A program made the position numbers and the translations under genes. A stretch of 64,000 bases of DNA from Halarcobacter anaerophilus (GTDB taxonomy: Bacteria; Campylobacterota; Campylobacteria; Campylobacterales; Arcobacteraceae): positions 372,001 to 436,000 of the forward strand of contig NZ_CP041070.1 of the NCBI RefSeq assembly GCF_006459125.1. Reading direction: 5' to 3'. Shown one piece after another: positions 2,978 through 14,184 of the stretch. Under the pieces are notes generated by a model. That model had not been told where the DNA came from. It saw nothing but the letters and a program-made list of their open reading frames with translations, and searched no databases. Every line of letters begins with the position of its first letter. Within the stretch, counting starts at the first letter, position 1.

Positions 2978-4321
2978 TTAAATAATTCCATATAATTTCG
3001 CTAATATAAATCCTACAGTTGAAGCTGTACCTACTCCAAGAATTCCAGGAATAATAAAACTATGATTTATAACAAATCTACCTATTCGTGTAGTTCCTGA
3101 TCTATCAAAACTAATTGCTGCTAAATCACTTGGATAAGTCGGTAAAATATAATAACCGTAACAAGCAGCAGCAAATGCAGCAATAACACCCGGGTCAACA
3201 CCGACAGATAAAGCAATAGGCACAATTGCGGCTAATGCAGCACCTTGTGAGTTAACCAATTTAGATACAAATACAAGAACTAATGCATATGCCCAAGGAT
3301 ATTGTGCAACAATATTTCCCATTACATCTTTGATATCACCGATATGCGCACCAAACATTGTTTTTGTCATCCATGCAACACCGTAAACAGCGATTAATGC
3401 AACCATACCTGATTTAAATACTGCGTTGCTTGAAATATCTTTTGGTTTAACTTTTGCAACTACAAAGATAATTGCCCCCGCTGTTAACATAAACATTTGA
3501 ATTACGTAAACCATAGATAAAGCTTTTCCATTTACAATTGGTCTCATTTCAGGGAATGCTCCCAAGATTGCTACAACAACAATTGCCCCTAAGAAAATCC
3601 ACATTGCATTCCATTGAGATTGTGGCAATTTTTGATTTAGCAATGTTGTATTTTCACCGTAAATATATTTTTTTGTTTCAGGATCTTTAATTTTTTCTTG
3701 AAACTCTTCATCATCTTCTAAGTCTTTACCTCTAAACATACTCCAAAATCCTATAACAAGTACACCACAGATAGCACCAGGAATAGTAATAGACAATAAC
3801 TGAACTAAGTCAAGTTCATTACCGTTGATCATAGTATGCCCAGAAAGCATTGCCACTAGTGAAACTACTGCAACAGATACGGGAGAAGTTATAATTCCCA
3901 TTTGTGCGGCAATTGTACTAGCTGCCATAGGTCTCTCAGGTCTAATTCCTTTTCTAATTGCAATGTCATAAATAATAGGCAACATTGTATATACTACATG
4001 TCCTGTACCACATAAGAAAGTTAATGTTAACGTACTTAACGGAGCCAAAAATGTAATATGTTTAGGATGTTTTCTTAACAAACGTTCTGCTAATTGCAGC
4101 ATTACATCCAAACCACCTGATGCTTGTAGCGTAGCTCCTGCTGTAATAACCGCTAACATTACAAGCATAACTTTTATAGGAGGATTACCAGGAGGCAAAC
4201 CAAACCCAAACACAAGTAATACTACTCCTATACCACCGAATAACCCTAGTGCAAGACCACCTTTTCTTGCGCCCATGAATAATACTGCTAAAACAATAAT
4301 TAGTTGAATTGTAAAATCCAT
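2978..4321 (-). CDS. dcuB: Anaerobic C4-dicarboxylate antiporter, DcuB type
   Basis: A 447-residue inner-membrane protein with about ten hydrophobic segments, which exchanges fumarate, aspartate or malate for succinate during fumarate respiration. The N-terminal region ([15 protein letters not shown], then [11 protein letters not shown], then [16 protein letters not shown]) follows E. coli DcuB closely rather than DcuA. The paralogue at 11307 follows DcuA. The ATG is preceded by GGAGC. It is transcribed away from the sensor kinase at 4482 and its leader contains the palindrome at 4345-4360. Transport direction and preferred substrate are family knowledge, not shown here. Confidence 0.93.
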
Positions 4322-4344: not shown

Positions 4345-4360
4345 ATGAATGTTTATTCAT
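4345..4360. promoter_or_regulatory. Palindromic operator candidate upstream of dcuB
   Basis: ATGAAT-GTTT-ATTCAT is a perfect inverted repeat with a 4-base spacer, 24 bases upstream of the dcuB ATG. A second inverted repeat, CATTC-TAAT-GAATG at 4338-4351, overlaps it. The same ATGAAT-N4-ATTCAT arrangement occurs upstream of aspA at 14169-14184. The position suggests binding near or downstream of the dcuB transcription start. The regulator is unknown; the adjacent response regulators are obvious candidates. Confidence 0.55.
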
Positions 4361-4472
4361 AATGTAATTGTAAAGATATAAAGTGTTATTAGTATGACAA
4401 TTTAAAAAAGTATAAAGAAAATAAACTAATATTAAAAAATAAGTCTAGTGATATTTATTTTTAATGTAATTT

Positions 4473-4481: not shown

Positions 4482-6659
4482 ATGAAGATGAAAAAATTAT
4501 TATTCCTATTTATTTTACTTTTTACTATCAATCTATCTGCTTCCTCTATTCTTATTTTGAATTCTTATCATAAGGGATATGAATGGAGTGATAACATTAT
4601 AAACGGAATGGAAAATTTCTTTTATAAAAAAAGGGATTTAGATATTAATATTTTATATATGGATTCAAAAAGGGTTACTTCAAAAGAGTATTATGAAAGT
4701 TTAGAAAAACTTTATAAAGTTCAATTAAAAAATAGAAAATATGATTTAATTATTGCAGTCGATAGATTTGCATATGATTTTATCTTGAAAAATTATTATG
4801 AATTTTTTACGACTGAACCTATATTAGCAGTAGGAATAGAAAACTTTTCATATGAAAAAGCAGAAAAATATGGTGTTGCAAACAGGGTTTCTGCACTTTT
4901 AGAAAAAAGAGATCTACAAGGCAATGTAGATATTATAAGAACAATTTTCCCTAGCATTAAAAAACTTTATATAATAAATGATAAAAGTTTAAATGCTTTA
5001 CATACTGAACCCCTTATTTACAATCTAATAGATAATTTTAACGGAAGTTTTGATTTGATTTATCTAAAAGAGGATAATTTAGAAAATTTAAAAAAGAAGT
5101 TTTCAGAAAAAGAAGAGTCTAGTGCGGCACTTTTTATAAGATTTTATAAAAATAAAAACGGAGAGTTAAATAAAAACCAAGAGATAGCAGATTTTATAAA
5201 AAATGCCAAAATACCTATTTTTGTTACAGATTCTATTTTTATAAAAAGAGGAGCTACTGGAGGGAAAGTTATAGATTTAAACAGGTTTGGGCAGACATCA
5301 GGACAGATGGCATTGGATATTTTGTCTAAAAAAACTAATAAAATTGTAGAATCCAAAGATCTATATTATATTTTTGATTCTACAAAACTGGGTGAATTTA
5401 CGCTTCCTGTTGATGCTTTAAAAGTACCTTATGAATTGGTTAATAAAAGATTGACCTATTATGACAGACACAGAGGATTTATAAATTTTGTTTTTACGAT
5501 TTCTCCTCTTTTGATTTTTTTAATTTTAGGACTTATTCATAATATATATATGAGAAAACAGGTTGAAAAGGATTTAAGAAGAAGAATAGAGTTTGACGAA
5601 ACTTTGTTAAATGCTATAGAGAGTCCTATTTTTTGGGAAGATTTTCAAGGTGTAATTGTTGATTCCAATGAAACATTCTGTAAACTTTTGAAATTGACTT
5701 GTAAAGATTTATATGGGAAAAAACTTGAAGACTTTAAAAATAATAAATATGTAAAAAGTGTTATAGAAATACTTGATAAATATAAACAGAATGAAGATGA
5801 AAATTATGAGTTTGATTACTTTGATGATAATTTGAAAAAAAGAATATATTTGGTAAAACAAGAGAAATTTAAAGATGAAAAAACAAAATCAGAGGGGTTT
5901 GTTACAATCTTTACCGATATTACAAAAGAGAAAGAGATAACTTTGGAAAAACAGAAAAATAGACAGTTTGTTATTCAGCAAAGTAAATTGGCAGAAATAG
6001 GTGAAGTTTTTTCCTCTATTGCCCATCAATGGAAATCTCCTCTTGTTGAAATAACTGCAATAGCCCAAGAACTTTTTTATACAAAAAAGTGTAAAGATTT
6101 AAAAGAAGATGACAGCTTTGTAAAAGATATAATGAATCAAGTAACATATATGACAAATACTATAAATGATTTTCAAAAATTTATAATGCCTTCAAACAAA
6201 GAAATTGAATTTAATATTAAAGAGGCGATTGAATCAATGCTTCAAATAGTACATCACAATATGAAATATAATAATATAAAAATATCTTTGTATATAAAAG
6301 AGGATACAAAGCTTGAAGTTTATGGATATAAAAATGAGTTTATGCAATCATGTTTGAATATAGTAAATAATGCAAAAGATGCCTTGTTAAGCAAAGATTA
6401 TAAAAATAGAAGAATTGATATAAAACTTTTTAATGAAAAAAATTGGTTAATTATTAAAATAAAAGATAATGCCGGTGGAATAAAAAAGAAAAATATGAAT
6501 AAAATCTTTGAACCTTATTTTACAACGAAAGATAACGGTCACGGGATAGGTCTTTATATGACGAAAGTTATAATTGAGGATAAAATGAAGGGTAAAATTT
6601 TCGTAGAAAATGTAGAGGAGGGAGCTATGTTCACTATAAAATTGGAACAAAACCGATGA
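4482..6659 (+). CDS. Membrane sensor histidine kinase with ABC-substrate-binding-like sensor domain (copy 1)
   Basis: A 725-residue hybrid of a periplasmic sensor and a kinase. A signal peptide or first membrane segment (about 1-20) precedes a periplasmic region to about residue 325 that resembles the ABC_sub_bind family (LILNSYHKGYEWSDNI near the start, GATGGKVIDLNRFG near the end). A membrane segment lies at about 335-358, then a PAS-like domain, then the H-box SSIAHQWKSPL with phospho-acceptor His515. The N-box NIVNNAKDAL and the ATP-lid motifs DNAGGI and GHGIGLYM follow. Its stop overlaps the response regulator start as ATGA, so the pair is one unit. The true start may be Met3 at 4488. 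The ligand is unknown; context suggests aspartate or C4-dicarboxylates. Confidence 0.85.
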   Translation: MKMKKLLFLFILLFTINLSASSILILNSYHKGYEWSDNIINGMENFFYKKRDLDINILYMDSKRVTSKEYYESLEKLYKVQLKNRKYDLIIAVDRFAYDFILKNYYEFFTTEPILAVGIENFSYEKAEKYGVANRVSALLEKRDLQGNVDIIRTIFPSIKKLYIINDKSLNALHTEPLIYNLIDNFNGSFDLIYLKEDNLENLKKKFSEKEESSAALFIRFYKNKNGELNKNQEIADFIKNAKIPIFVTDSIFIKRGATGGKVIDLNRFGQTSGQMALDILSKKTNKIVESKDLYYIFDSTKLGEFTLPVDALKVPYELVNKRLTYYDRHRGFINFVFTISPLLIFLILGLIHNIYMRKQVEKDLRRRIEFDETLLNAIESPIFWEDFQGVIVDSNETFCKLLKLTCKDLYGKKLEDFKNNKYVKSVIEILDKYKQNEDENYEFDYFDDNLKKRIYLVKQEKFKDEKTKSEGFVTIFTDITKEKEITLEKQKNRQFVIQQSKLAEIGEVFSSIAHQWKSPLVEITAIAQELFYTKKCKDLKEDDSFVKDIMNQVTYMTNTINDFQKFIMPSNKEIEFNIKEAIESMLQIVHHNMKYNNIKISLYIKEDTKLEVYGYKNEFMQSCLNIVNNAKDALLSKDYKNRRIDIKLFNEKNWLIIKIKDNAGGIKKKNMNKIFEPYFTTKDNGHGIGLYMTKVIIEDKMKGKIFVENVEEGAMFTIKLEQNR

Positions 6660-7312
6660 AAGTTTTAGTACTTGAAGATAATGAAAGACTTTCTAACGTT
6701 ATTAAACAAGCATTGATTGAAGAAGGTTATATTGTTGATTGTTTTTATGATGGAGATGAAGCTTTTGAAGTTTTAGGAAATGGCTATTCATGTTTTATTT
6801 TGGATATAAATGTTCCCAATTTAGATGGAATATCAATTTTAGAATATATAAGATTAAATCATTCCAATACTCCTGTAATAATAATTAGTTCAAATCATGA
6901 TTTGGAAAAAGTTCAGAAATCTTATGAAACAGGCTGTGACGATTATCTTAAAAAACCTTTTTATATCTTTGAGCTTGTGCAAAAAGTAAAAAAATTTTGT
7001 AATTCAGAAGGTCAGTATATTGTCTTTAATGATTTGTTTAAATATGATTTCCAAAACCATATTTTATATAAAGATAAAGAAGAGATAGAATTAACAAAAA
7101 AAGAGATTTTATTTTTAGAACTTTTTGTAAAAAACCTTCACCACCTTGCCTCTTATGAAGAGATAGAGGAATATGTATGGGAAGGAGAAGAGACAAATCT
7201 AATTAATATCAGGGGAATGATTAAAAGGCTTAGAAAAAAAATTCCCGAAGATGGAATTGTTATTGTTAAAGGATTGGGTTACTCTTTAAATAAAAATGTG
7301 AAAATCATTTGA
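6656..7312 (+). CDS. OmpR/PhoB-type response regulator (copy 1)
   Basis: A 218-residue cytoplasmic transcription factor, partner of the kinase at 4482, whose stop it overlaps by four bases. The receiver domain occupies about 1-115, with acidic residues E7 and D8, phospho-acceptor Asp50 in FILDINVP, the switch serines in IIISSNHD and the conserved lysine in LKKPF. A winged-helix trans_reg_C domain follows (about 145-215: LTKKEILFLELF to KGLGYSLN). Part of the receiver coding sequence (6818-6903) is an exact inverted copy of the regulator at 7305. The two genes converge and their ends overlap. Target genes are not shown by the sequence. Confidence 0.9.
   Translation: MKVLVLEDNERLSNVIKQALIEEGYIVDCFYDGDEAFEVLGNGYSCFILDINVPNLDGISILEYIRLNHSNTPVIIISSNHDLEKVQKSYETGCDDYLKKPFYIFELVQKVKKFCNSEGQYIVFNDLFKYDFQNHILYKDKEEIELTKKEILFLELFVKNLHHLASYEEIEEYVWEGEETNLINIRGMIKRLRKKIPEDGIVIVKGLGYSLNKNVKII
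6818..6903 (+). repeat. 86-base perfect inverted repeat, left arm
   Basis: This stretch of the receiver domain of response regulator 1 is identical, base for base, to the reverse complement of 7717-7802 in response regulator 2. Mismatches resume at 6817 and 6904. It covers the codons from the asparagine in VPNLDG to the HD in SSNHDL, including synonymous positions. Confidence 0.9.
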
Positions 7313-7964
7313 CTTCCACTTCTGTTGCGTTCATTGAATAACCGATTCCTTTTACAATTTTAATAGAGTTCTCAGGAATTTTTTTTCTTATTCTTTTTAC
7401 CAAAGCTCTTATATTCATTAGTGTAGAGGGATCTCCTTCCCATACATATTCTTCAATTTCATCGAAACTAAATACTCTATGGATATCTTTTGCCAAAAGT
7501 TCAAGAAGTAGAATCTCTTTTTTTGCCAATTTTATCTCTTGCTGGTCTTTTATTAAAAATCTTTTGTCAAAATCAAGAATATATCCTTCTCCTAGATCTA
7601 TTTTTGTGGCTTTCAAAGAACAAAGTTTTTGAATTTTCTGGGTTAATTCATACATAAAAAACGGTTTTTTGAGATAATCGTCACAACCTGTTTCATAAGA
7701 TTTTTGTATTTTTTCTAAATCATGATTTGAACTAATTATTATTACAGGAGTATTGGAATGATTTAATCTTATATATTCTAAAATTGATATTCCATCTAAA
7801 TTTGGAACATTAATATCTAAAATAAAACATGAATAACCATCTGCCAATGCCGTTAAGGCATCTTCTCCATCATAAAAACAATCAACTATATAACCGCATC
7901 TTGTAAGTGCATTTTCAATTAGTTTGCACAATCTTTCATTATCTTCAAGAACTAATATTTTCAT
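7305..7964 (-). CDS. OmpR/PhoB-type response regulator (copy 2)
   Basis: A 219-residue paralogue of the regulator at 6656. It has a receiver domain with phospho-acceptor Asp50 and an identical core from GYSCFILDINVP to the LKKPF lysine apart from one Ile/Val change. A diverged linker and a winged-helix DNA-binding domain ending KGIGYSMNA follow. The start lies 20 bases inside the end of its kinase gene (7945), with GGAGAG in front, so translation is probably coupled. The two regulators are convergent: the 8-base string TCATTTGA at 7305-7312 carries both stop codons, and no terminator lies between. The DNA-binding domains differ more than the receivers, so they may read different sites or different variants of one site. 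Confidence 0.9.
   Translation of the reverse strand: MKILVLEDNERLCKLIENALTRCGYIVDCFYDGEDALTALADGYSCFILDINVPNLDGISILEYIRLNHSNTPVIIISSNHDLEKIQKSYETGCDDYLKKPFFMYELTQKIQKLCSLKATKIDLGEGYILDFDKRFLIKDQQEIKLAKKEILLLELLAKDIHRVFSFDEIEEYVWEGDPSTLMNIRALVKRIRKKIPENSIKIVKGIGYSMNATEVEVK
7717..7802 (-). repeat. 86-base perfect inverted repeat, right arm
   Basis: Reverse complement of 6818-6903, inside the receiver domain of response regulator 2. Flanking sequence is similar but interrupted by synonymous and non-synonymous differences, so the identical block stands out. Confidence 0.9.
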
Positions 7965-10155
7965 TGAAACTCTCCATTCTTATAATAAATTTTGCACCTT
8001 GTGCCGTATTCTTTGCTTTAATCTCTCCGCCTATTTTATCTTCTATAATCAGTTTTGCCATATAAAGACCTATTCCGTGACCGTTTACTTTTGTTGTAAA
8101 ATAGGGTTCAAAAATCAAGTTTAAATTCTCTTTGGGAATACCTTCTCCGTTATCCTCAATCTCTATTTGTATACATTGATTTATATTTTTTATAGAGATA
8201 AGAATTTCTCCTTTTTTTATTTTAGATTTTGCCCTTTTTTTTATTATGGAATCTTTTGCATTATTTACTATATTTAATAAAGTTTGCATCAATTCATTTT
8301 TATAACCAAGTATCATAAGGTTTGTTTTAGGGGCTACTTCTACATTTACATTTATATAATTATATTTCATGTTGTGTCTGATGATTTCAAGCATTTCATA
8401 AACAGATTCACTTATATCAAAAACCGATTTTTTAGTAGAAGGCATAATAAATTTTTGAAAATTATTAATAGTTTCAGTCATATATCTTACTTGAATCATA
8501 ATATCATTCACGTATTTGTTATTTACTTCATCTATTTCACCTTCTGCATTAAATATTTGTTCCTGAGCAATAGTGGCAATCTCGACCAAAGGAGATTTCC
8601 ATTGATGGGCAATAGAGGAGAAGATTTCGCCGATTTCGGCAAGTTTACTTTGTTGTATTATAAACTCTTGGTGTTTTGCTTTTTCCGCTATGGCCTGTCT
8701 CTCTTTTGTAATATCTGTTAAAACCGTAACCGTACCGCTTGTTTTGTAAATATTTTCTATATAATCTGTTTGATGAATCAAATATATTTTTTCTTTGTTA
8801 TGGTTGTTTTTTATTATTAATTCATTGTTTCCTAGTTTTTTATTAATAAAAGGTTTTAAAAGTTCTTTTATAGAAGAGTTCTCAGCTTCTTCAAGTGATT
8901 TTGCAATGTTAAGATTATTTACTTCTTTAAGTTTCATAAATTCATTAAATTTTGTATTTGACGTGACTATTTTACCTCTTTCATCCTGCCATACGATAGG
9001 ACTTTTAATGGCATTTAAAAGAATTTTGTCTAATTCTATTCTTTGTTGTAATATCTTTGAACTGCGAATTTTAAGTATTAAATTATGAATAAGACCGAAA
9101 ATAAGAAGAAGTAAAAATGGTGAAATTATAAATACCGTGTCAATAAATTTTCTGTATCTATCGAAAAAAGATTTAGGAAAGTTGACATATACAAATTTGT
9201 CTTTTAAATTTCTTAGATTTAATTGAAATTTTTGAGCTTTTTTATAATCAAAAATAAGTTCATAATAATCTTCTTTTTTAATAAAAGGCATTTTTATATC
9301 TTTATTTAGTATAGATAATATATCTTTCCCTGCATCTAAACCTAAATGATTTACATTTACAAGTTTTCCTCCTGCTGACCCTTTACCTATAAAAAGAGTA
9401 TCAGTAGTAAAGACGGGAAGATTAGAATTATTTATAAAATTTGCGATTTCGCTGTTTTTATAAAGTTTACCGTGTCTGTCGTTGTAAAATCTGACAAAAA
9501 GTATTGCTTCATTTTTTCTATATTTTGAAAATTTTTTAGATAATTCATTCAAAGTTGATTCTCTTATATACTCTATATCAATATTCTCTTTTTTTTGTTG
9601 AATAAGTTTTTGTATAAAAGGATCACTATCTTTCCCGTTTTTACTTGCATCATTTATAATATAGAGTTTTTTAAGTTTTGGGATTAACTTTTGAATAATA
9701 TTTACTGTCTCTTTTATTGCTCTTTTTTCAAGTAGACCTGAAACTTTTTTTTCAAGTCCGTATTTTTTTACATCCTCTTTTGAATATTGCTCTATTCCTA
9801 TAAAATAAAGAGGTTCATTTTTAAATAGTTCTTTATAATTTTGTAATGAAAATTCATATGAAAATTTATCAAGAGCAACTATCAAATCATAATTTGCTTT
9901 TTTTAACTGCACTTGATACAGCTCTTTTAATTCTTTATAATATTCAGCAGAAGCTATTCTTTTTGAATCCATGTATAAAACGTTTATATTAATATTTGTA
10001 TTATATAAAACTTTTTCTATACCTGTAATAACTTTATCGCTCCACTGAAAACCTCTATGATATGAGTTTATTATGAGTACATTTTTATTTTCCAATGCAA
10101 AAAGAAGAGTGTGGAAAAAACATAGAAGAAGAATAACTAGAGCAAATTTTTTCAT
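7945..10155 (-). CDS. Membrane sensor histidine kinase with ABC-substrate-binding-like sensor domain (copy 2)
   Basis: A 736-residue paralogue of the kinase at 4482 with the same layout. A signal segment (about 1-20) is followed by a periplasmic ABC_sub_bind-like region (LIINSYHRGFQWSDKV near the start, GSAGGKLVNVNHLG near the end), a membrane segment at about 345-365 and a PAS-like region. The H-box SSIAHQWKSPLVEI carries His517, followed by the N-box NIVNNAKDS and the ATP-binding motifs DNGEGIP and GHGIGLYM. The sensor regions of the two kinases are clearly related but well diverged, so they may recognise different ligands. It is followed by its regulator and lies downstream of the asparaginase gene, from which a terminator separates it. 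Confidence 0.85.
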   Translation of the reverse strand: MKKFALVILLLCFFHTLLFALENKNVLIINSYHRGFQWSDKVITGIEKVLYNTNININVLYMDSKRIASAEYYKELKELYQVQLKKANYDLIVALDKFSYEFSLQNYKELFKNEPLYFIGIEQYSKEDVKKYGLEKKVSGLLEKRAIKETVNIIQKLIPKLKKLYIINDASKNGKDSDPFIQKLIQQKKENIDIEYIRESTLNELSKKFSKYRKNEAILFVRFYNDRHGKLYKNSEIANFINNSNLPVFTTDTLFIGKGSAGGKLVNVNHLGLDAGKDILSILNKDIKMPFIKKEDYYELIFDYKKAQKFQLNLRNLKDKFVYVNFPKSFFDRYRKFIDTVFIISPFLLLLIFGLIHNLILKIRSSKILQQRIELDKILLNAIKSPIVWQDERGKIVTSNTKFNEFMKLKEVNNLNIAKSLEEAENSSIKELLKPFINKKLGNNELIIKNNHNKEKIYLIHQTDYIENIYKTSGTVTVLTDITKERQAIAEKAKHQEFIIQQSKLAEIGEIFSSIAHQWKSPLVEIATIAQEQIFNAEGEIDEVNNKYVNDIMIQVRYMTETINNFQKFIMPSTKKSVFDISESVYEMLEIIRHNMKYNYINVNVEVAPKTNLMILGYKNELMQTLLNIVNNAKDSIIKKRAKSKIKKGEILISIKNINQCIQIEIEDNGEGIPKENLNLIFEPYFTTKVNGHGIGLYMAKLIIEDKIGGEIKAKNTAQGAKFIIRMESFNENISS

Positions 10156-10187: not shown

Positions 10188-10194
10188 CTCAAAA

Positions 10195-10219
10195 AAGAGA
10201 AGAGAAAAAATCTTCTCTT
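10195..10219 (-). terminator. Intrinsic terminator after the asparaginase gene
   Basis: A 9-base perfect stem, AAGAGAAGA (10195-10203) with TCTTCTCTT (10211-10219), and a 7-base loop. On the minus strand the stem is followed by TTTT then GAG. It ends the aspA-dcuA-asparaginase operon before the second sensor kinase. Confidence 0.75.
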
Positions 10220-10225
10220 CTTTTT

Positions 10226-11302
<1,077 letters not shown>

Positions 11303-11306
11303 CTAT

Positions 11307-12611
11307 TTAAGATAAAATGATTCCACCTAATATGAAACCAAAAAATACGCTTAAACTGATTGCTAAAACTCCCGGAATCATAAAAGGGTGATTAAATACA
11401 AGTTTTCCGATTCTAGTTGAACCTGTATCATCCATTTCTACTGCTGCAAGTAGTGTAGGGTAAGTAGGTAATACAAATAAAGCACTAACTGCTGCAAATG
11501 ATGCAACGGCAGTTACGGGATCAACACCTAAAGCAAGGGCTGCGGGCATTAATGCTTTTGTTGTAGCACCTTGAGAATATAAAAGCATACTTGCAAAAAA
11601 TAGTGCAACAGCTAGCATCCAAGGATACTGATTTAGTAAAGTACTTGCAAAATCTTTAATTTCTCCAAGATGTGCTCCTACAAATGTAGTTCCTAACCAT
11701 GCAACACCTAATACACAGACACAAGCACTCATACCTGATTTAAAAGTTGATGCACTGATAATTTTTGAAGTATCGACTTTACAAGCTAAACTAATAATTG
11801 TTGCACAAGCTAACATAAATACCATAATCGCTGCATTTCTTGGAAGAGAAGGGTCAGTGATTATTGCAACTTTTTTACTAATTAAAGTTGCATATGTTAC
11901 AACTGAAAAGATTGTAAGTATAAAAATCAAAACAGATAATTTTGCACCTTTTTTAATTTCAATATCACTTTTACCTCTTAATTTAACCAAGCCTTTTTTT
12001 AGTCTTTCTTGATATACAGAATCATCTTTTAAGTCTTTACCTAAGAAATTACTAACAAAAGCCGTAATCATACAAGCAACAAATGTTGTTGGAATACAAA
12101 CTGCCAATAACTGAATGTAGCCTACTCCAAGAGGTTCTAAAATTCCACTTAAAAAAACAACTGCTGCTGAAATTGGTGAAGCAGTAATAGCAATTTGTGA
12201 AGCTACAACTGCAATACCAAGCGGTCTTGAAGGTCTAATACCTTGTTCTTTGGCAACTTCCGCAATTACAGGAAGAGTTGAATATGCAGTGTGTCCAGTC
12301 CCTGCTAAAAGTGTCATAAAATATGTAACTGCAGGAGCTAAATATGTAATATGTTTTGGGTTTTTTCTTAAAATATTTTCTGCAATTTTAACCATATAAT
12401 CTAAACCGCCGGCAACCTGCATTGCTGCAATTGCAGCAATAACAGACATAATAATCAAGATAACGTCGATTGGAATACTTCCGGGTTCTAGTCCAAAAAA
12501 CAGACATAGAATTAATACCCCGATACCACCTGCATAACCTATACCGATACCACCCATACGAGCACCTAAAAATATTGCACCTAATACAACTACAATTTCT
12601 AAACCTAACAT
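11307..12611 (-). CDS. dcuA: C4-dicarboxylate/aspartate transporter, DcuA type
   Basis: A 434-residue inner-membrane antiporter with about ten hydrophobic segments. The sequence tracks E. coli DcuA: ARMGGIGIGYAGGIGVL, MQVAGGLDYMVK, ITASPISAAVVFLSG, and a C-terminal FVLPTYPTLLAAVEMDD. In this family DcuA handles aspartate uptake and aspartate/succinate or fumarate exchange. It lies 31 bases after aspA and 31 before the asparaginase gene, a compact operon that couples uptake to use. It is a paralogue of dcuB at 2978, with which it shares the overall fold but not the N-terminal sequence. Confidence 0.94.
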   Translation of the reverse strand: MLGLEIVVVLGAIFLGARMGGIGIGYAGGIGVLILCLFFGLEPGSIPIDVILIIMSVIAAIAAMQVAGGLDYMVKIAENILRKNPKHITYLAPAVTYFMTLLAGTGHTAYSTLPVIAEVAKEQGIRPSRPLGIAVVASQIAITASPISAAVVFLSGILEPLGVGYIQLLAVCIPTTFVACMITAFVSNFLGKDLKDDSVYQERLKKGLVKLRGKSDIEIKKGAKLSVLIFILTIFSVVTYATLISKKVAIITDPSLPRNAAIMVFMLACATIISLACKVDTSKIISASTFKSGMSACVCVLGVAWLGTTFVGAHLGEIKDFASTLLNQYPWMLAVALFFASMLLYSQGATTKALMPAALALGVDPVTAVASFAAVSALFVLPTYPTLLAAVEMDDTGSTRIGKLVFNHPFMIPGVLAISLSVFFGFILGGIILS

Positions 12612-12642: not shown

Positions 12643-14049
12643 TTATTTGATTAATCTTGGTTTAATCATATTTTCAGGTTTGATAATATCTTCAAGCTCT
12701 TCTTTTGTTAAAAGACCTCTTTTTAAAACAATGTCGTATACTGATTGTCCGCTATCTAATGCTTCTTTAGCCACTGAAGTTGAGTTTTCATAACCGATAT
12801 GCGGATTAAGAGCAGTTACCAGCCCGATAGAATTAACAACAAGATTTTTACAATGCTCTTTATTTGCAGTAATTCCGTCAATACATTTATTCGCTAATGT
12901 TTCAAAAGCATTTTTCATCATATTAATTGAATTAAATAAGTTAAAAGCAATTACAGGTTCAAATACATTAAGTTGTAATTGACCGCCTTCACTAGCCAAT
13001 GTAATTGTTACATCTGCACCGATAACTTGAAATGCAACTTGATTTACAACTTCAGGAATAACAGGGTTAACTTTACCAGGCATAATTGATGAACCAGGTT
13101 GCATTGCAGGAAGGTTAATCTCATTTAAACCGGCTCTTGGTCCACTGCTTAGAAGTCTTAAATCATTACAAATTTTTGAAATTTTTGTCGCAATTCTTTT
13201 TAATACTCCTGAGATTTGTACATAAGCTCCTGTATCTTGTGTAGCTTCAACTAAATCTTTTGCAGTTTTAAACGGTCTTCCCGTAACATCTTGAAGTTTT
13301 TCTTCTACTAAATGTGCATATTCAGGATGTGAGTTGATACCTGTTCCGATTGCAGTAGCACCAAGATTCATCTCTCTTACTAATTGTTGGGCTTCAAGTA
13401 ATCTTTGAATATCCTCTTCAATCATTGTAGAGAATGAGTGAAACTCTTGTCCCAATGTCATAGGTACAGCATCTTGAAGTTGAGTTCTACCCATTTTAAT
13501 GATATCTTTGAACTCTTTTGATTTTTTACCTAAAGAATTTTTCAAAATAGTCATTGCATCTACAAGTTCGTAAATTTTTTCATATAAAGCAATTCTAAAT
13601 GCTGTAGGATATGAGTCATTTGTAGATTGTGATTTATTTACATCATTGTTTGGATGTAAAAAAGCATATTCACCTTTTTTGTGACCTAAGATTTCAAGTC
13701 CTCTGTTTGCAATAACTTCATTTGCATTCATATTGATAGAAGTTCCGGCTCCGCCTTGGATCATATCAACAACAAACTCTTCGTGCAAAGCACCGTCCAT
13801 AATCTCATCACAAGCTTCACAAATTGCATTTTTTTTGTTCTCTTCAAGTAAACCCAATTCATAATTTGCCAATGCACAAGATTTTTTCACTTTTACAAGA
13901 GAAGTTATAAATGCAGGGAATTGAGAAAGAGTAATTCCTGTAATATTGAAGTTCTCTTTTGCTCTTAATGTTTGCACACCATAATAGACTTTTTCTGAGA
14001 TTTCTCTATCTCCAATTAAGTCATGTTCCATTCTTTTAGTCATTTTCAA
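12643..14049 (-). CDS. aspA: Aspartate ammonia-lyase (aspartase)
   Basis: A 468-residue cytoplasmic enzyme converting aspartate to fumarate and ammonia. The fumarase/aspartase superfamily signature GSSIMPGKVNP lies at residues 319-329, and the aspartase-like N-terminal region (LIGDREISEKVYYGVQTLRA) rules out fumarase C. It is the first gene of aspA-dcuA-ansB. The 285-base upstream region carries the palindrome at 14169-14184. Its product, fumarate, is the substrate of the frdCAB complex encoded next door, so asparagine and aspartate can serve as both nitrogen and electron-acceptor sources. Confidence 0.96.
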   Translation of the reverse strand: MKMTKRMEHDLIGDREISEKVYYGVQTLRAKENFNITGITLSQFPAFITSLVKVKKSCALANYELGLLEENKKNAICEACDEIMDGALHEEFVVDMIQGGAGTSINMNANEVIANRGLEILGHKKGEYAFLHPNNDVNKSQSTNDSYPTAFRIALYEKIYELVDAMTILKNSLGKKSKEFKDIIKMGRTQLQDAVPMTLGQEFHSFSTMIEEDIQRLLEAQQLVREMNLGATAIGTGINSHPEYAHLVEEKLQDVTGRPFKTAKDLVEATQDTGAYVQISGVLKRIATKISKICNDLRLLSSGPRAGLNEINLPAMQPGSSIMPGKVNPVIPEVVNQVAFQVIGADVTITLASEGGQLQLNVFEPVIAFNLFNSINMMKNAFETLANKCIDGITANKEHCKNLVVNSIGLVTALNPHIGYENSTSVAKEALDSGQSVYDIVLKRGLLTKEELEDIIKPENMIKPRLIK

Positions 14050-14168
14050 TCCTTTTATAAATATTAAATAAATCTTAAAAATAATACTTAAGGTTTATCT
14101 TTAATTAAAAGAATTTTAATCGTCTAAAATGAACTAAAAGTGATGTTTCTCTGTTTTTTCAAAAAACT

Positions 14169-14184
14169 ATGAATAAATATTCAT
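14169..14184. promoter_or_regulatory. Palindromic operator candidate upstream of aspA
   Basis: ATGAAT-AAAT-ATTCAT is a perfect inverted repeat, 120 bases upstream of the aspA ATG. It matches the dcuB site in half-sites and spacing; the 17-base ATGAATAAAYATTCATT is common to both when the dcuB site is read on the minus strand. Candidate -10 boxes for aspA lie between it and the gene (for example TATTAT on the minus strand at 14081-14086), so here the site sits upstream of the promoter, an activator-like position. Confidence 0.55.

Follow-up and report, generated by a model that had tools for sequence, protein, structure and literature searches.

How did two similar sensory systems come to lie in mirror image in one genome, and what do they control? 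In the window, a 64,000-nucleotide (nt) stretch of the Halarcobacter anaerophilus genome (NZ_CP041070.1, positions 372,001 to 436,000), a gene pair encoding a histidine kinase and a response regulator (HK_A and RR_A) on the plus strand meets a second such pair (HK_B and RR_B) on the minus strand, with the two regulator genes overlapping tail to tail by 8 nt. HK_A and HK_B are 48% identical and RR_A and RR_B 66%, and the A and B proteins are mutual best full-length matches in the genome (the next two full-length pairs reach 36% and 35%), which confirms the mirror-image, pairwise paralogous arrangement described in the initial annotation. We consider it probable that the A and B pairs are two insulated, local two-component systems which activate genes for the uptake of C4-dicarboxylates and aspartate or asparagine, that their adjacency is secondary, and that the receiver core of the regulators has been converted.

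Both kinases carry a periplasmic sensor related to binding proteins. The sensors matched the Pfam model ABC_sub_bind (PF04392; gathering cut-off 25.9 bits) with 32.5 bits in HK_A and 38.5 bits in HK_B, the latter from the isolated domain, as the Pfam search with full-length HK_B did not report the sensor. AlphaFold models of the sensors (mean predicted local distance difference test score, pLDDT, 93.1 for B and 92.7 for A) had the TrpX-type binding proteins 3lft, 3lkv and 6hni as best fold matches, with Z 22.7 for the A sensor and E 2.4e-13 for the B sensor against 3lft, and a profile built from 70 sensors reached 6hni and 3lkv by sequence. The proposal that substrate-binding-like sensors are fused to PAS/kinase modules was borne out by these profile and fold matches. 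Of the proposed PAS/HisKA/ATPase layout, Pfam found PAS and HATPase_c in HK_A and HATPase_c in HK_B, and an H-box, EIGE[VI]FSSIAHQWKSPL, is visible in the alignment, but the Pfam HisKA model matched neither kinase. Response_reg and Trans_reg_C were found in both regulators, and the combination with a HATPase_c kinase makes each pair an OmpR/PhoB-type two-component system. Neither a characterised ABC_sub_bind kinase nor any paper on this kinase family was found in full-text literature searches, which miss most subscription journals. B-type kinases of about 615 aa without PAS lie beside aspA in Sulfurospirillum and some Arcobacteraceae, and a stand-alone ABC_sub_bind protein (340 bits) encoded elsewhere in the genome is likely a true transporter binding protein.

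The promoters next to the two systems carry different repeats. Aligned aspA promoters share ATCACTTTTAGTTCATTTTA, an imperfect 11-nt direct repeat just 5' of the -10 element, at linked and unlinked loci alike, and the promoters of DASS and Dcu1 transporter genes share TGtCAyAyTAA-TGyCAy, also an 11-nt repeat just 5' of the -10 element. With up to 3 mismatches allowed, the B box was present in 16/16 Arcobacteraceae aspA promoters (shuffled mean 0.04) and in 0/28 A-type promoters, and the A box in 7/7 Dcu1 and 19/21 DASS promoters (26/28 transporter promoters) and in 1/16 aspA promoters; the consensuses were derived from the same promoters as counted, and it is the cross-counts that carry weight. 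The perfect B box is a single copy in the genome and the best A box match is the dcu1 site, while for both boxes the genome-wide matches past the best one were not above a reversed-pattern control. Related repeats occur in D-type and Sulfurospirillum promoters. Direct repeats of 11 nt near the -10 element are expected of OmpR/PhoB-type operators, and the conserved boxes are candidates for such sites; on this reading each of the two regulators would act locally as an activator, with an operator of its own. Because the putative operators differ, cross-talk at promoters is disfavoured. An A-box-like site with 2 mismatches before a hydrogenase gene is not conserved in relatives, and the hydrogenase is for this reason not claimed as an RR_A target.

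Both promoters also contain the palindrome TGAAT-N4-ATTCA. It was considered as a shared regulator site and rejected, since several of its other copies in the genome stand before hydrogenase, hyp and oxidoreductase genes; the palindrome looks like a wider anaerobic element and is probably a CRP/FNR-family operator. In relatives it is conserved before the hydrogenase.

The ligand class is suggested by the gene neighbourhoods of the wider kinase family. The transporters beside the paralogues belong to the DASS, Dcu, DcuC, SDF, TRAP, TRAP-TAXI and LrgAB families, most of the other paralogues with surroundings read have a transporter or a set of enzymes for carboxylates next to them, and none of the neighbourhoods read contained a recognisable ABC transporter. 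Two further pairs in the genome lie beside LutABC, a TRAP transporter and a GlcD-like oxidase (pair C) and beside a Psr-like oxidoreductase (pair D), all names being read from the sequences. Because the paralogues adjoin organic-acid transporters, carboxylates are the more probable ligands. Arg145 and Arg222 of HK_B lie at ends of strands that seem to face the cleft. A and B retain both arginines, which the lactate-linked paralogue C lacks, and together with the neighbouring genes these residues point to a C4-dicarboxylate or aspartate/asparagine as the likely ligand. In the flanks of pair C, a common element AATATCATA[TA]CTTTTTCAT precedes the TRAP and LutABC genes (L006, 6204-6298 and 11854-11933) and is a candidate RR_C operator. 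Three loci have B-like kinases beside DcuC; one of them (L065) also has aspartate carbamoyltransferase-like and dihydroorotase-like genes, which may form a cluster for the breakdown of carbamoyl-aspartate or pyrimidines that has a sensor of its own. At two other loci ansB and the kinase gene are separated by a chemoreceptor-like gene, which suggests that taxis is coupled to that operon.

How the two pairs became neighbours was approached with a survey of 104 Arcobacteraceae genomes. Where present, the A locus mostly reads trxA - transporter - HK_A - RR_A, with the transporter being DASS (PF00939) or Dcu1, and the B locus reads aspA-dcuA-(ansB)-HK_B-RR_B. The two are joined tail to tail in 8/104 genomes and unlinked in others, five of them listed; in genus g15 and in genome G054 they are at distant loci, with each pair keeping its own neighbours. 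Many genomes have the A pair without the B pair. In three genomes lacking B, fum and frdB directly follow RR_A, and for this reason the block aspA-dcuA-ansB-HK_B-RR_B appears to be present or absent, and to move, as a unit. B-type kinases are found in the same operon in Sulfurospirillum, S. diekertiae JPD-1 and S. cavolei among them, and in metagenome bins of termite-gut and other Campylobacteraceae. In the kinase tree all A sequences form one clade (support 99). One of the tail-to-tail genomes, G033, has an A kinase that groups with its own genus and a B kinase that groups with the genus of the window, and the 3' half of its RR_A groups with the likely donor side. The B kinase and this 3' half look transferred, and the groupings are consistent with a block brought in by homologous recombination that had a breakpoint inside RR_A. 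In genus g15, six loci have a further, diverged A-like pair beside trxA, and at three of them this pair is in tandem with Dcu1 and the A pair.

The regulators in the window are much more alike in one segment than elsewhere. Domain by domain, A and B are 45% identical in the sensor, 50% in the second transmembrane segment and linker, 36% in PAS, 64% in DHp and 51% in CA, and the regulators 83% in the receiver and 48% in the DNA-binding domain. The receiver core of RR_A and RR_B is 98% identical in amino acids and 94% in nucleotides, compared with 85-86% nt identity to the nearest orthologues, and is the sole A/B stretch more alike than the orthologue level. Among seven tail-to-tail genomes, A and B cores were more similar in nucleotides within the same genome than across genomes (7 of 5040 pairings as high), and the same held at synonymous codons of the core (75.0% vs 67.4%; 21/5040). 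The N-terminal 42 residues of the regulators showed no same-genome excess in these seven genomes, and the DNA-binding part a weak effect at synonymous codons only (283/5040). In five unlinked genomes the same-genome effect was smaller (6-7 of 120 pairings). The excess thus lies chiefly in the core and is stronger where the genes are adjacent. In the core of the window's RR_B, 23 sites are common to its own RR_A only and 7 to the orthologue in genome G056 only, while in the C-terminal half these numbers are 27 and 76. A tree that held the B sequences together on the core was rejected (approximately unbiased test, p-AU 0.038). Gene conversion from A to B is the simplest reading of the receiver-core identity.

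The initial annotation had proposed that two sensors acting in parallel or with cross-talk arose by a local inverted duplication, and that their ligand domains diverged while the signalling parts stayed alike. A and B are indeed nearer to one another than to any other full-length paralogue in the genome and have a mirror-image arrangement, the 5' halves of the regulator genes show inverted similarity over 345 nt at 83%, far above chance, and DHp helices 64% identical would make phosphotransfer cross-talk possible. Nevertheless, we regard this model as improbable. Each pair has orthologues at separate loci elsewhere (genus g15 and G054 among them) with different conserved neighbours, contrary to a recent local inverted duplication; A occurs alone in many genomes, the B block comes and goes as a unit, and Sulfurospirillum carries B in the same operon. 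The near-identity is limited to the receiver core, and the putative A and B operators differ. Nor do the domain identities support divergent ligand domains beside conserved signalling parts, with the sensor at 45% against 36% in PAS, 51% in CA and 48% in the DNA-binding domain, and with the putative cleft residues mostly common to A and B. As for different closest relatives elsewhere, which the annotation had named as evidence against its own model, each pair does have its own orthologues and context, but the A and B kinases belong to one family. An inverted duplication far older than the family would be compatible with the kinase tree, in which the root is left open, and for this reason we speak of A and B as old paralogues from an ancient duplication of unspecified geometry, for which a local inverted duplication is not needed. 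Selection for shared partners, instead of gene conversion, could also account for the receiver-core identity, as DHp and receiver are the best-conserved parts of A and B. We give this explanation little credence, since the same-genome excess extends to synonymous codons and the window's RR_B carries A-type residues that are not present in its B orthologues.

It is also conceivable that the sensors answer to aromatic or other amino acids and that the carboxylate neighbours reflect general anaerobic co-regulation: the closest structures are TrpX-type, such as 3lft with tryptophan and CD0873 (6hni), and the CRP/FNR-like palindrome of both promoters is also seen before hydrogenase genes. We think this alternative unlikely but worth keeping in view, because the paralogues sit beside unrelated families of organic-acid transporters with no ABC transporter recognised, and because the A box is retained while the transporter family is swapped. 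Indirect support for control of aspA-dcuA-ansB by HK_B-RR_B may come from S. multivorans, in which aspA, dcuA and ansB showed the three largest transcript decreases on tetrachloroethene (PCE) versus fumarate (log fold change -8.75 to -9.11; PMC7755780); in the named Sulfurospirillum genomes a kinase-regulator pair lies directly 3' of these genes. Several points count against our interpretation. The fumarate effect in S. multivorans may stem from another regulator, and the aspA-linked two-component system is outside the genes listed as changed (PMC7755780). The relatives of the sensor with solved structures have aromatic amino acids as ligands instead of dicarboxylates, and the cleft residues were assigned from strand ends of a model, not from a ligand complex. 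To these is added the derivation of the box consensuses mentioned above. The features on which the interpretation rests are listed in Table 1.

Table 1. Genes, putative regulatory sites and receiver cores of the A and B systems (window coordinates; aa, amino acids; TM, transmembrane segment)
Feature	Position	Strand	Remarks
Dcu1, Dcu-family C4-dicarboxylate transporter	2978..4321	-	NF009136; divergent from HK_A
Palindrome TGAATGTTTATTCA	4346..4359	strand-neutral	CRP/FNR-like spacing; one of 11 such sites in 3.02 Mb
Putative A box TGTCATACTAATAACACTT	4381..4399	-	proposed RR_A operator; conserved before Dcu1/DASS genes
HK_A	4482..6659	+	725 aa; signal/TM1, ABC_sub_bind periplasmic sensor, TM2, PAS, H-box (DHp), HATPase_c
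RR_A	6656..7312	+	218 aa; OmpR-type response regulator (receiver and Trans_reg_C)
RR_A receiver core	6782..6961	+	probable donor of gene-conversion tract
RR_B	7305..7964	-	219 aa; OmpR-type response regulator
RR_B receiver core	7659..7838	-	probable recipient of gene-conversion tract
HK_B	7945..10155	-	736 aa; layout as HK_A
Hairpin, 13 bp, between ansB and HK_B	10191..10223	-	TATAAT after
ansB, type II asparaginase	10226..11275	-	
Dcu2, DcuA-type C4-dicarboxylate/aspartate transporter	11307..12611	-	NF006927
aspA, aspartate ammonia-lyase	12643..14049	-	first gene of B operon; TIGR00839 over cut-off
Putative B box TCACTTTTAGTTCATTTTA	14125..14143	-	proposed RR_B operator; 16/16 aspA promoters
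Palindrome TGAATATTTATTCA	14170..14183	strand-neutral	CRP/FNR-like spacing; 5' of B box

Because a hairpin and a -10-like hexamer separate ansB from HK_B in most relatives (the hairpin sequence itself varies), the HK_B-RR_B pair probably has its own, weaker transcript.

We propose that A and B are separate members of a single Campylobacterota family of two-component systems, whose PAS/histidine kinases have a TrpX-type binding-protein domain as an integral sensor. HK_B would sense a periplasmic C4-dicarboxylate or aspartate/asparagine and transfer phosphate to RR_B, which would bind the 11-nt direct-repeat box just 5' of the aspA -10 element and switch on, not repress, aspA-dcuA-ansB. HK_A and RR_A would respond to a related carboxylate and, by way of a different box, activate the transporter gene next to them, which is Dcu1 here and DASS in many relatives. 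The B block may have been inserted beside HK_A-RR_A, or lost elsewhere, and later gene conversion may have homogenised the receiver core but left the two regulators with distinct DNA-binding domains and operators. More broadly, we lean towards the view that the Campylobacterota have an expanded family of kinases with TrpX-type sensors, each paralogue with its own transporter operon and direct-repeat operator, in which the transporter can be swapped for a non-homologous one (DASS for Dcu) under an unchanged sensor and operator, and in which blocks of sensor and operon move between genera as units. This model proposes a regulator for the aspartate/fumarate uptake genes of Arcobacteraceae and Sulfurospirillum, and puts forward a candidate operator for RR_A, another for RR_B and a class of ligands. 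The locus also offers what appear to be clear cases of two processes, replacement of a transporter under a retained sensor-operator pair and local gene conversion between regulator genes that meet tail to tail.

Sensor domains of binding-protein families are already known in kinases generally (PMC9602780), as are C4-dicarboxylate two-component systems such as DcuSR. The sensors share family and fold with the TrpX-type ABC_sub_bind proteins 3lft, 3lkv and 6hni (Z 22-23), but at 12-16% identity, and here the domain is part of a kinase with no ABC transporter alongside. In TorT-TorS, entries of which were among the fold matches, a type I binding-protein fold in the periplasm likewise drives a kinase, whereas in A and B the kinase itself contains the binding domain and the neighbourhood has no visible separate binding protein. 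In Campylobacter jejuni, a related genus, RacRS and Cj1000 control the aspA/dcuA fumarate genes, and RacRS reportedly represses aspA in the presence of nitrate or of trimethylamine N-oxide, TMAO (PMC6682613); these are set beside A and B by description, not by sequence. Like DcuSR and DctBD, the A and B systems would link carboxylate sensing in the periplasm to the control of fumarate metabolism and of carboxylate transporters, Dcu or others. Unlike DcuS, their sensor is ABC_sub_bind with a type I binding-protein fold, not sCache_3_2 (PF17203), for which the whole genome gave no DcuS-type sensor while the E. coli control was positive, and their regulator is OmpR/PhoB-type (Trans_reg_C), not DcuR-type. 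The A and B systems probably fill the role that DcuSR, to which they are unrelated, plays in E. coli.

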